NCBI RefSeq assembly: GCF_940670685.1
Contig: NZ_OW711693.1
Span: forward strand, 806,001 to 870,000
DNA length: 64,000 nucleotides
Direction: 5' to 3'
From: Anaeropeptidivorans aminofermentans
GTDB taxonomy: Bacteria; Bacillota; Clostridia; Lachnospirales; UBA5962
Both the position numbers and the translations under genes were made by a program. Positions 2,152 to 59,066 of the stretch are shown piece after piece (positions within the stretch are counted from its first letter, which is position 1; the number at the start of each line of letters is the position of its first letter). The notes below the pieces were generated by a model, which saw only the letters and a list, made by a program, of their open reading frames with translations, searched no databases and was not told the DNA's origin.

Positions 2152-2548
2152 TATATATTAAATTTAAAGTTAACATGTTAAAGCCATATATTTCTTGATT
2201 CATATAAAATAGCGGCAATGTCAATTTGCTTTTCTCTTATTTTATATCCCTAAAAACCAGATGCTTATAATAGAAGAAACAGAACAAATGGCCTTTTCTA
2301 AAACTGCCTTTATTTGATTTTATATATTAAAAGCCTTATGATTATTGCAGTATAAAGATAATTTCACTGTGTTTGCGAAAGCAATCCATGTTTTTATACG
2401 AAGCAAACTTGGAAAAGGATACAGGCGTAAGCCTGTAACCCTTTTTTTATTGAGGTTTTCTTATGGTTATCAACCATGTTTTTTATTTGATAATGCTGAG
2501 GCTTAAGTGAATAGGCGTTTGTTGCTTCTTCATAATAAATTTATTATG
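2152..2548. repeat. degenerate copy of TATAGTAAATTT palindromic element
   Basis: The left end (TATATATTAAATTTAAAGTTAA) and the right end (TTGCTTCTTCATAATAAATTTATTAT) match the ends of the better copies at 41280-41361 and 47700-47927, including the AAAGCCATATAT and AATAGGCGTT inner motifs. The element is about 400 bases long, so it is either a long variant or an element carrying an insertion. It also holds the short motif TGTCAATTTGCTTTTCTCTT at 2219 and a terminator at 2412-2449. Confidence 0.5.
2412..2449 (+). terminator. orphan terminator-like hairpin
   Basis: The stem AAAAGGATACAGGC, loop GTAA and GCCTGTAACCCTTTTTTT form a strong intrinsic-terminator shape. No protein gene ends upstream after the terminator at 2099. 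It may end an untranslated RNA that starts inside 2100-2400. Confidence 0.7.
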
Positions 2549-23570: not shown

Positions 23571-23579
23571 TGATATAAT
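23571..23579 (+). promoter_or_regulatory. extended -10 promoter before cheY
   Basis: TGA directly followed by TATAAT (23574-23579) forms a TGnTATAAT extended -10. No good -35 lies 17-18 bases upstream, which extended -10 promoters do not need. The same TGnTATAATG plus hairpin occurs at 57156. It could drive cheY and the export genes from within the superoperon. Confidence 0.5.
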
Positions 23580-23614
23580 GTAAATAAAATTAAGCGAAGC
23601 TTAATTTTATTTAC
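23580..23614. repeat. perfect 16-bp hairpin, copy 1 of promoter-hairpin module
   Basis: GTAAATAAAATTAAGC, loop GAA, GCTTAATTTTATTTAC: a perfect palindrome beginning one base after TATAAT. The transcript would begin inside the left arm or its first bases. A related copy with compensatory changes is at 57166-57198. A secondary pair ACGCAT/ATGCGT follows. Confidence 0.75.
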
Positions 23615-23735
23615 GCATGCATTTCCCAAAGAAAAAGGTATGCGTAACAAAATTATGTTTATGCTGCAATATTTATTTAAATGAAATTTATCGAATTCGC
23701 AATAATCTAACTTTATATTTTAGGAGTGAGAATAA

Positions 23736-24101
23736 ATGTCTGATAAGACTATTTTGTTGGTTGACGATGCAGCCTTTATGAGAATGATGCTTAAAGATAT
23801 TTTGACTAAAAACGGTTACAGCGTTGTAGGCGAAGCGGAAAATGGTATAAAAGCCATAGAAAAGTTTAAAGAGCTTAAGCCCGACCTTACAATACTCGAC
23901 ATTACAATGCCTGAAATGGACGGAATACAGGCAGCAAAGGGCATAAGAGCTGCCGATCCCAACGCTGTTATCATAATGTGTTCTGCAATGGGCCAGCAGT
24001 CAATGGTTATTGACAGTATACAGGCAGGAGCAAGAGACTTCATCGTTAAGCCCTTCCAGCCCAGCAGGGTTATTGAAGCCGTTCAAAAGGTTATAGGATA
24101 G
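23736..24101 (+). CDS. cheY: chemotaxis response regulator CheY
   Basis: This single-domain receiver of 121 residues binds FliM/FliY when phosphorylated and changes motor rotation. The acidic pair is Asp10-Asp11, the phosphoacceptor is Asp55 (LTILDITMPEMDG), and Ser83 and Lys105 complete the active site. ATG 23736 follows AGGAGTGAG. It is preceded by a 250-base gap with an extended -10 promoter and hairpin. Its cognate kinase CheA is not in this window. Confidence 0.93.
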   Translation: MSDKTILLVDDAAFMRMMLKDILTKNGYSVVGEAENGIKAIEKFKELKPDLTILDITMPEMDGIQAAKGIRAADPNAVIIMCSAMGQQSMVIDSIQAGARDFIVKPFQPSRVIEAVQKVIG

Positions 24102-39673: not shown

Positions 39674-39803
39674 TATAGTAAATTTCAAATGAAACAGTAA
39701 TAAAAATCGTATATTTTGAATGGCTTAAACATAAGGATTTTACATGTTTAAGCCGTTTATGAAAAATAGATTTTTATTACATCCTTCAGTGAAATTTACT
39801 ATA
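39674..39803. repeat. TATAGTAAATTT palindromic element
   Basis: Perfect 13-base terminal inverted repeats TATAGTAAATTTC and GAAATTTACTATA enclose 104 bases. Inner segments CAGTAATAAAAATC and GATTTTTATTAC also pair, so almost the whole unit can fold. A 73-codon open frame at 39744 is an artefact of this element. Confidence 0.8.
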
Positions 39804-41279: not shown

Positions 41280-41361
41280 TATAGTAAATTTAAAGTTAAA
41301 CAGTAGCAAAGCCGTATATTCATGCAGGCTTTTACTGCTTCTTCATAATAAATTTACTATA
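41280..41361. repeat. TATAGTAAATTT palindromic element (shortest clear copy)
   Basis: This 82-base unit has perfect 12-base terminal inverted repeats TATAGTAAATTT/AAATTTACTATA. Inner AGTAGCAAAGCC and GGCTTTTACT pair as a second stem. It begins 6 bases after the protease stop codon. Confidence 0.85.
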
Positions 41362-47699: not shown

Positions 47700-47927
47700 T
47701 ATAGTAAATTTAAAGTTAAATAGTAATAAAACCGTATATTTACTTTGACTCAAAATATATCGTTTTCTATAGAAATCTATATTTGAGTAGCATAAAAAGA
47801 TATGCCTTAGGGAAAGGGGAGCTAGGGCTCAAAGTAGGCAGTAGCGGAGCAGGATTTATGTGAATAAATCCAAATTTTATTCTTTAGGGAATAGGCGTTG
47901 TTACTTCTTTACAAGAAATTTACTTTA
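47700..47927. repeat. TATAGTAAATTT palindromic element (long copy)
   Basis: The left end TATAGTAAATTTAAAGTTAA and the right end AAGAAATTTACTTTA bound a 228-base unit. An inner hairpin CTCAAAATATA...TATATTTGAG is present, and GAATAGGCGTTGTTACTTCTT matches the right end of the 2152-2548 copy. It occupies the gap between kinase and MFS genes. Confidence 0.75.
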
Positions 47928-50016: not shown

Positions 50017-50230
50017 TATAGTCAAATTCAAATGAAATGGGGGTATTGTCAAATCGCTTTTCTCTTATTTTATGCCCCGTTAGAGCAAGTACTTAATGCG
50101 GAATAAAAGCAATTTGACTATATAGTCGATTTCAACTGAAACGGTATTGAGGATTTCCGCTGTAGGAGCAAATGCCCGTTTGGTGAAGGCCTATATTATT
50201 CCACCATTGTTTCATATGAAATTTACTATA
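50017..50230. repeat. two adjoining palindromic elements
   Basis: The first unit (50017-50122) has ends TATAGTCAAATT and AATTTGACTATA and holds TGTCAAATCGCTTTTCTCTT. The second (50121-50230) has TATAGTCGATTTC and GAAATTTACTATA and shares the TATA overlap. It fills the gap before radA. Confidence 0.65.
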
Positions 50231-53918: not shown

Positions 53919-54101
53919 AGGCAGTACTCGCGGCTTTTACGTATAGCCAATTTGCCTTTATCCTGAAGTGAATATTAGACTTTAGAGGGCCTAAAATAAG
54001 AGAAAAGTAAATTGCAACATATTTATTCGTATGGCTGTAAGAGTGAAATAATTCAGAGTAAGTTTATAAATTATACGCTATTTAAAAAAGAGAAAGAATT
54101 T
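53919..54101. other. region between rdgB and repeat copy
   Basis: No gene seen. A copy of the AAAATAAGAGAAAAGTAAAT motif lies at 53991-54016. The rest is AT-rich. Confidence 0.4.
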
Positions 54102-54244
54102 TATTGTAAATTTAATATGAAGAAGCAGCAAAGCCTATTCTGTTCCCAGCAAGATTAAAAATAAGGATTTCCTTCGGAAACGGTACGTTTTTGAGCTTTT
54201 GTGAATATACGGCTTTGCTGCTGTTTAACTTTAAATTTACTATA
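54102..54244. repeat. TATAGTAAATTT palindromic element
   Basis: TATTGTAAATTT and AAATTTACTATA end a 143-base unit. Inner GAAGCAGCAAAGCC pairs with GGCTTTGCTGC. GGATTTCCTTCGGAAACGG and TTTTTGAG match the 49191 copy. It directly abuts the htpG terminator. Confidence 0.8.
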
Positions 54245-54248
54245 AACG

Positions 54249-56222: not shown

Positions 56223-56336
56223 TATAGTAAATTTATTCTGAAGAAATAACAAAAGCCTGTTCTCTATGGAAATCCGTATTTTTGAACTATGGAGAACGGG
56301 ATTTTGCGGCTATTTTACTTTGTTTAACTATATATA
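56223..56336. repeat. palindromic element inside the htpG leader
   Basis: TATAGTAAATTT (56223-56234) begins a copy whose other end is degenerate (TTTAACTATATATAAAT). CTATGGAAATCCGTATTTTTGAACTATGG resembles the inner part of other copies. It lies between the predicted htpG start site and its start codon, so it would be transcribed. Confidence 0.6.
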
Positions 56337-56871: not shown

Positions 56872-57155
56872 TTTATCCTCCGTATCAATAGCCCTGTAAA
56901 TGTGAAAGACTTTCAGGGCTTATATTCAGGCCAAAAACAAGAAAAGTATTTGACCTTCGCCGAAAATTGGTTTTGCAGGCACCTGCGACGCTAAAACAAA
57001 GAGCTTACCAGATATTGTTTTAGCGTTTATCTTAGGCCTATATTGCAGTTCTATTAAAACAATAGTATAATTATAGCATTTCTTGCAAAAATATGAAATA
57101 GGAAAGATAGGCCCCTATTAAGCCTTTCCGGAGATTTGAAACAGATTATTTCATG
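56872..57155. other. non-coding region between DUF5721 and glnS promoter
   Basis: No gene seen. GACGCTAAAACAA (56988-57000) and TTGTTTTAGCGTT (57018-57030) can pair across a short spacer; CCTATA and AGGCCTA runs follow. Two minus-strand promoters could start here. Confidence 0.35.
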
Positions 57156-57164
57156 TGGTATAAT
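57156..57164 (+). promoter_or_regulatory. extended -10 promoter before glnS
   Basis: TGG followed by TATAAT (57159-57164): a TGnTATAAT box, as at 23571. The transcript would carry the hairpin at 57166-57198 at its 5' end and a leader of about 230 bases before glnS. Confidence 0.55.
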
Positions 57165-57165
57165 G

Positions 57166-57198
57166 GAAACAAAATTAAGCGAAGCTTAATTTTGTTTC
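57166..57198. repeat. perfect 15-bp hairpin, copy 2 of promoter-hairpin module
   Basis: GAAACAAAATTAAGC, loop GAA, GCTTAATTTTGTTTC. It differs from copy 1 at two stem positions, with matching changes in both arms. A partial second copy of the right flank (GATTTTGTTTCTGAATACATTTC) lies at about 57271-57293. Confidence 0.8.
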
Positions 57199-57398
57199 TG
57201 AATACATTTCTCGAAGAGGAGTGTATGAGTATATATGGCAAAAAAGGAAACTGGCAAATCAAACTGTATTTGATTTTGTTTCTGAATACATTTCCGAAGG
57301 GAAATGCAGGAGCAGGCAATAATTTGATTAGTATAAAAAAACTACGACTATAGTATAATTTATATATTATTTATCTTACGTAAAAGCAGGAGGTTATT

Positions 57399-59066
57399 AT
57401 GGAAAACAGGAGCGAAAGCAGCTTAAGCGAAACCGGCAATTTTATTCACGCTTATATTAACGAAGATTTAGAGGGAAGACTGAACCAAGTGCATACACGC
57501 TTTCCTCCGGAGCCTAACGGTTACCTTCATATAGGCCATGCCAAGGCCATTACTTTGAATTACAGCATTGCAAAAATGTACGGGGGAAAGTTCAATCTGC
57601 GTTTTGACGACACCAATCCGGCCAAGGAGGATACGGAATACGTAGAATCTATTATAAGGGATATTAAATGGCTTGGGGCGGACTGGGAAGACAGGCTTTA
57701 TTTTGCGTCGGATTATTTTGAGCAGTTTTATGAGATGGCAATTACGCTGATAAAAAAAGGCAAGGCCTTCGTCTGCGACCTTACAGCAGAGGAAATCAGG
57801 CAATACAGGGGAACATTAAACGCCCCGGGGAAGGAAAGCCCCTATAGAAACAGGACGATAGAAGAAAACCTTGATTTGTTTGAGAGAATGAAAAACGGGG
57901 AATTCCCCGATGGCTCCAGAACATTAAGGGCTAAAATTGACATGAGCTCTCCCAATATTAATATGAGAGATCCTGTTATTTACCGTATCGCTAAAATACC
58001 GCATCATAGAACAGGGGATAAATGGTGTATTTATCCGATGTATGACTATGCTCATCCCCTTGAAGATGCTATCGAGGGAATCACCCATTCCCTTTGCTCC
58101 ATGGAGTTTGAAGACCATAGGCCTCTTTATGACTGGTTCATCAATGAGCTTGATTTTGAGCTGAAACCAAGGCAGATAGAATTTGCAAAACTTTATCTTA
58201 CCAATACCATTGTAGGAAAAAGATATTTAAAGGCCCTTGTAGATAATAAAGAGGTTGACGGCTGGGACGATCCAAGGCTTGCGACCCTTTCAGGCATGAG
58301 AAGAAGAGGCTATACACCGGAAGCTTTGATTGACTTCCTTGAAAAAATAGGGGTATCAAAGGCCAACAGCAAGGTAGATTATTCCTTTCTTGAATACTGC
58401 GTAAGAGATGATTTGAAGCTTCGCTCAAAGGTAGTAATGGCGGTTCTTGACCCTGTGAAGCTTGTGATAACAAATTACCCCGAAGGGGAAGGGGAATACG
58501 TAACCCTTGAAAATAATCCTGAGGTTCCTGAAATGGGTACGAGAGAGGTACCTTTTTCAAGAGAGCTTTATATAGAGCGTTCAGACTTTATGGAAGATGC
58601 GCCTAAGAAATTCCACAGGCTTACGCCTGGGCAGGAGGTAAGGCTTAAAGGGGCATATTTTGTTACCTGTACAGACTTTGTGAAGGACGAAAACGGAAAT
58701 GTTACAGAGATACACGGCACCTATGACCCACAAACGAGAAGCGGCTCCGGCTTTGACGGCAGAAAGGTAAAAGGAACCATTCACTGGGTAAGCGCTCCTC
58801 ACGCCCTCAAAGTTACCGCAAGAGAATTTGACTTTATTGTTTTTGACGATGAAACAAGCGAAAACGGACTGAGGAAAAATCCTGATTCTCTTAAACTTTA
58901 TGAAAACTGCTACGTTGAGCCTTCTTTAAAAGAAGCAGCAGTTGAAGACAGGTTCCAGTTTATGAGGAACGGTTACTTTTGCATCGATTATAAGCTTTCA
59001 ACACCGGAAAATCTTGTTTTTAATGAGGTCGTAGCCCTTAAAAGCTCTTACAAGCCGGGAAATTAA
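57399..59066 (+). CDS. glnS: glutaminyl-tRNA synthetase
   Basis: GlnRS charges tRNA-Gln with glutamine. The 555-residue enzyme starts at ATG 57399 after GCAGGAGG. HIGH lies at residues 44-47 ([15 protein letters not shown]). The class I KMSKS counterpart is IVGKR at 271-275, whereas E. coli has [24 protein letters not shown] and the C-terminal anticodon-binding beta barrels ([14 protein letters not shown]) mark GlnRS rather than GluRS. No T-box leader is seen. A clostridial subfamily with GKR is known to me. Confidence 0.96.

Follow-up and report, generated by a model that had tools for sequence, protein, structure and literature searches.

A dispersed two-hairpin repeat with an extended −10 box upstream of many genes in Anaeropeptidivorans aminofermentans

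In the Anaeropeptidivorans aminofermentans DNA analysed here (64,000 nucleotides, hereafter the window), two copies of a −10 box followed by hairpins stand before cheY and glnS. We found that both belong to a family of about 130 repeat units at 69 places, counted after overlapping opposite-strand matches had been removed. Among the genomes searched, the family has so far been found in this genome only. It is probably a lineage-specific, dispersed and tandemly amplifying repeat, which brings or directly follows an extended −10 promoter of the sigma-A type and from which the 5′ leader of the next gene is made. The initial annotation had read the two copies as a selected structure linking cheY and glnS. 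Its observation is confirmed, its interpretation is partly supported, and its scope is greatly enlarged.

The repeat unit and its family

All features of the two copies lie on the forward strand. In the cheY copy, the extended −10 box TGATATAAT, nearly invariant in the first units of the family, was read in the sequence at 23571-23579 (hexamer 23574-23579). It is followed by hairpin 1 (hp1, 23580-23614), a perfect 16-bp stem (23580-23595/23599-23614) with the loop GAA (23596-23598) that is also present in the family alignment. Hairpin 2 (hp2, 23613-23645) was located by the alignment and by the fold of an RNA beginning at 23586; in this copy it has Watson-Crick pairs in place of the usual tandem G.A. 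The degenerate tail −10 motif TTATGCTGCAAT (23659-23670) agrees with TTATGATATAAT at 9 of 12 positions and stands at a distance from hp2 that is fixed in the family. The gene cheY, called and matched to its protein family, occupies 23736-24101. No good −35 was seen in the upstream flank of this copy.

The glnS copy has a candidate −35, TTGAAA, at 57136-57141 (TTGAAA-N17-TATAAT), which agrees with a family-wide enrichment, and an extended −10 box TGGTATAAT at 57156-57164 (hexamer 57159-57164). Its hp1 (57165-57199) has a 16-bp stem (57165-57180/57184-57199) with an outermost G-T pair and the loop GAA. Fold and alignment place hp2 at 57199-57229, with a stem at 57202-57226, the tandem G.A and the closing pair 57199/57229. 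A second, degenerate and partial tandem unit follows at 57230-57317; it is a covariance-model match (genome 863230-863317, E = 2.6 × 10−5) and also a direct repeat. The gene glnS, again called and matched to its family, lies at 57399-59066.

Sequence and folds bear out the −10 box and the hairpin with GAA loop noted earlier for both copies, and hp1 folds far better than shuffled sequences (z = −8.3 for cheY and −8.0 for glnS). The two hp1 stems differ at two pairs, and both changes are compensated as had been described (T-A to G-C at 23581/23613, T-A to C-G at 23585/23609). The ATTTCxC-like bases noted downstream are present in both copies; it had been missed that they are the 5′ arm of hp2. 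A direct-repeat alignment of the two copies covers 76 nt at 80% identity, and thus the shared region extends well beyond the first hairpin.

A 96-bp query matched the same genome dozens of times (best non-self E = 5.7 × 10−17). From 16 copies we built a covariance model (85 positions, 27 pairs), and with it over 100 full-length units were detected in the chromosome of 3.76 Mb (best E = 4.7 × 10−23). The initial annotation had proposed such a search and had allowed that the motif might occur only twice; this is decisively not the case. As in a dispersed promoter-bearing repeat, numerous similar copies are thus scattered over unrelated sites of a single genome. The model was trained on part of the family, so that some weak members may be missing or wrong; the loci studied are the stretches fetched around its matches. 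Judged by eye, no bias between the halves of the chromosome was apparent.

Tandem head-to-tail arrays, whose period is roughly 82-90 bp, were found at 20 of the 69 places (about 30%). The largest has 10 units and lies 106 bp before ftsZ. In this array (genome 2585436-2586317) the 10 units lie between a promoter-bearing unit and ftsZ, and most inner units have TACAAT, not TATAAT.

The unit can be written as TTATG(R)TATAAT, hp1, hp2, about 13 nt and TTATGATATAAT, with a period of about 88 bp. Here, hp1 is a perfect palindrome of about 16 bp, and hp2 is an 11-bp stem with a tandem G.A and a GAA or AAA loop; hp2 is the better conserved of the two across the family. In the model, TG occupies columns 7-8, TATAAT 10-15, hp1 16-31/35-50 and hp2 53-63/67-77. 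Columns 51-52 and 78-79 form the tandem G.A, which is found in 60 of 90 units, while 10 have full Watson-Crick pairing. Columns 50/80 close hp2, and among 87 units this pair is C-G in 42, T-A in 29 and T-G in 8; much of the change may come from two subfamilies, so these counts do not represent many independent events. A second −10 motif stands at a nearly fixed distance past hp2 at 34 of 69 places, compared with 6 of 69 control stretches. TGnTATAAT is almost invariant in first units. In homogeneous arrays, inner units have degenerate −10 boxes and bodies nearly identical to that of the first unit.

No terminal inverted repeats were seen at the unit ends, which carry direct repeats of TTATGATATAAT. 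As a sign of target-site duplication, we asked whether the variable base matches between the two −10 boxes; the result was not significant (p-value = 0.13), and a duplication would be inseparable from the element ends. The idea that inner units are copies begun at the transcription start was considered, with breakpoints clustering near columns 20-24. However, several inner heads resemble degenerate full heads, and we do not claim this origin.

Position relative to genes and promoter signals

Gene calls were made with our own simple caller based on codon usage. By these calls, the gene downstream of the element was co-directional at 56 of 69 places (p-value = 1.7 × 10−7), and a cruder caller gave 55 of 69. 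Thirteen places have no co-directional gene after them. Among co-directional neighbours the element followed the genes in 30 cases and opposed them in 5 (p-value = 2.2 × 10−5), and divergent gene pairs (26 places) were more frequent than convergent ones (8).

In the upstream flank, TTG-like −35 bases are enriched at 17-bp spacing, with T at 59% and G at 41% at the −35 positions. A similar pattern was seen at other TGnTATAAT promoters (13 sites only). TTATG before TATAAT is more conserved at the element sites than at these other promoters. The promoter and 5′-leader position suggested by the initial annotation thus agrees with the near-invariant box in first units, the −35 enrichment and the co-directional genes, which together give a promoter motif aimed at the neighbouring gene. 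From consensus and position, we infer that the promoter may be used.

The genes behind the element are diverse. Forty downstream proteins were scanned and 38 matched families, several of them below the curated cut-off. They include pgi-like, dnaX, ahpC, proS, deoC, nagA, tdh, cheY, glnS, lexA and ispF, and also dxs, rubrerythrin, purH, clpP, guaB, ftsZ, recX-like, ftsK-like, mtnN, cls and others. Many are core genes (ftsZ, dnaX, lexA, guaB), their functions are unrelated, and no coherent regulon emerges. The proposed link between cheY and glnS is therefore not supported, because their copies are members of a large family before functionally unrelated genes.

If the element works as proposed, the left TATAAT would be used together with a −35 from the flank. 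Transcription would start about 7 nt past this box, at about 23586 for cheY, a position predicted from consensus spacing alone, and at about 57171 for glnS. With such a start, the RNA would open with a 10-bp hairpin flush at its 5′ end, and hp2 would come next. The family may have spread by some copy mechanism, possibly transposition, and copies would have been retained where a usable promoter resulted. The arrays may have grown through slippage or unequal exchange.

The two hairpins as RNA and as DNA

We examined which part of the unit may be selected. In the fold of the RNA from 23586, the upper 10 bp of hp1 and hp2 form, and the lower stem does not. The predicted RNAs from 23586 and 57171 both have the flush 5′ hairpin and fold better than shuffled sequences (z = −5.0 and −4.5). 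The initial annotation had taken the compensatory changes as a sign of a selected RNA 5′ end. However, both changed pairs have 5′ sides (23581 and 23585) that precede the start which it had itself proposed, 23586, so that an RNA starting there cannot form them. Moreover, hp1 is strand-neutral.

The lower hp1 stem is paired at 91% in units with TATAAT compared with 75% in units without it, while the upper stem shows no difference (95% and 96%). The difference in the lower stem would be expected if a cause at the DNA level acted on the promoter unit, or if the inner heads had drifted. The hp1 loops occur in both orientations (TTT 26 and AAA 13, GAA 9 and TTC 4, AGA 5 and TCT 5), and hp1 has no strand preference and no excess of GU over AC. 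Template switching at short-loop palindromes is known to homogenise the arms and to invert the loop or spacer (PMC8604942). The covariation and the inverted loops of hp1 would fit such template switching on DNA, and we infer that the compensatory changes of hp1 come at least partly from it. A function of hp1 as an intrinsic terminator was dropped, because in GC-rich variants (for example at 2129060) the stem is not followed by a U-tract.

The pattern is different in hp2. The ratio of purine-rich to pyrimidine-rich loops is 57:12 in hp2 and 39:47 in hp1, and GU exceeds AC in hp2 (43:19, p-value = 0.003). These p-values are optimistic since the rows are related by descent, and the pair counts are flattered by an alignment that was fitted to the structure. 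Because of its strand-biased loop, its excess of GU and its kept tandem mismatch, hp2 is most likely the part that is selected as a folded single strand, whether RNA or DNA.

Origin of the family and comparison with known repeats

With the covariance model, 38 related genomes gave weak matches only, and the 14 weak-match loci that were inspected look like terminators or consist of a single hairpin. GuaB led to ten more genomes, which gave nothing beyond three weak matches in one genome. Its nearest named relatives come from uncultured Clostridia, Epulonipiscium and Defluviitaleaceae, as would be expected for a probable Lachnospirales-like clostridium as the source. Some of these ten may be among the 38, so that up to 48 relatives were covered, none of them another species of the same genus. 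Rfam, searched at gathering and relaxed thresholds, yielded nothing convincing and no match above the gathering score, and phages, plasmids and viral contigs gave no matches or short chance matches only. At orthologous genes of the related genomes searched the element was not seen, so the conservation of a regulon RNA was not found.

The gap between fliY and cheY is 250 bp here and 3-121 bp in 18 relatives, none of which has the element (19 were compared, and one gave no CheY match); these relatives are too distant for the junctions to be aligned. Since the extra length (over 120 bp) is greater than one unit, other sequence was gained as well. Within the genome, a search for empty sites by comparison of flanks turned up just IS copies and dispersed repeats of other kinds. 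One further dispersed family, with the ends TATAGTAAATTT...AAATTTACTATA, is MITE-like with a TA target and has many copies in the fetched loci; its copies in the window lie at 39674-39714, 41280-41361, 47700-47740, 54102-54245 and 56223-56263. Another repeated intergenic sequence lies at window positions 2198-2267, 50026-50095 and 53942-54014.

We also looked for a parent transposon and read 20 IS200-like copies among 26 Y1 transposase matches; their ends differ from those of the unit. These 20 copies fall into four groups (genome 974778, 1040740, 1748935 and others). By eye, nearly all their left ends stand directly after a terminator-like hairpin with a T-run, as if intrinsic terminators were the insertion target. 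At genome position about 912100, one IS200-like copy stands at the left edge of a family unit and replaces the bases before TATAAT; hp1 may have served there as a terminator-like target.

A non-autonomous transposable element might target host TATAAT sequences, with the stretch from hp1 to the tail TATAAT inserted right behind an existing −10 box, in the manner of ssDNA-type elements, which go in on the 3′ side of a fixed target. The promoter position would then follow from target choice. The −35-like bases lie outside the conserved element and resemble those of other TGnTATAAT promoters, direct repeats of TTATGATATAAT mark the two ends of the unit, and the strand-specific hp2 structure and the orientation bias toward genes would also agree. 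However, TTATG is more conserved at the element sites than at other such promoters, the short gap in relatives makes a pre-existing promoter between fliY and cheY doubtful, and the inspected IS200-like elements have other ends. We consider this origin unlikely. The first reading, in which a regulatory or mRNA-stabilising 5′ RNA structure is selected as such and cheY, glnS and the other targets form one regulon, appears quite improbable. It would account for the leader position, the well-folding predicted RNAs with their flush hairpin and the strand-specific features of hp2, but the pairs that covary precede the proposed start, hp1 lacks strand asymmetry, the genes are unrelated, and relatives with the same genes lack the element.

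The family could also be a decaying selfish repeat without effect on genes, in which template switching alone keeps hp1 palindromic and the orientation relative to genes reflects a bias of insertion or retention. The loops in both orientations, the lack of a GU excess in hp1, the known ability of template switching to homogenise arms and invert spacers (PMC8604942) and the other dispersed repeats in the genome agree with this. But TATAAT is nearly invariant in first units and degenerate in the inner units of homogeneous arrays, the tandem mismatch of hp2 is kept though template switching would erase it, and the orientation bias is 30 to 5, which makes such a repeat very unlikely. A dispersed repeat associated with a promoter and forming the leader is the reading we prefer.

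In a limited search of the open literature, the closest known kind is that of small dispersed repeats which make promoters and structured leaders, above all CREE; an earlier description of the family may exist. CREE/NEMIS (Correia repeat enclosed elements) of Neisseria are likewise small dispersed repeats near genes that form RNA hairpins and make promoters, and a native −35 is combined with a −10 that their first bases supply. However, CREE end in inverted repeats and target TA sites, and the units described here have no such ends as far as seen. By description, the family also differs from CREE in its two distinct hairpins in fixed order, its direct-repeat bounds of TTATGATATAAT, its head-to-tail arrays and its different phylum. 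REP/BIME and REPIN sequences are dispersed intergenic palindromes, some of them clustered. The family is similar in this respect, but no associated single-copy RAYT-type transposase was identified; the Y1 matches mostly belong to IS200-like elements that are present in several copies and differ in their ends.

BOX elements of Streptococcus pneumoniae are likewise dispersed and modular, with structured RNA and internal modules that vary in number, and genes downstream can be stimulated by boxA and boxC (PMC3049150). Convergent gene pairs are the places where BOX is over-represented (PMC3049150), whereas our family is mostly upstream of genes, and its arrays, unlike BOX, repeat the whole two-hairpin body. 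ERIC sequences are also intergenic palindromic repeats, whose RNA can alter transcript stability depending on orientation (PMC2229807); no promoter at their edge is described in the text consulted, and by this description they are set apart from the family.

The family might be a self-spreading repeat that has captured promoters and 5′ leaders at dozens of unrelated genes, core genes among them (ftsZ, dnaX, lexA, clpP, guaB, glnS), with the number of tandem hairpins tuning the expression of each gene; we offer this only tentatively, as possible but rather doubtful. The family also calls for caution, in that compensatory changes in a short-loop palindrome can arise from template switching on DNA and are alone no proof of a selected RNA. 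Should the left −10 boxes be in use, a single lineage-specific repeat would have rewired the transcription starts of dozens of unrelated genes. With unit numbers from 1 to 10, its many copies form a natural series in which to measure how a promoter arises from a repeat and how tandem hairpins act within a leader.
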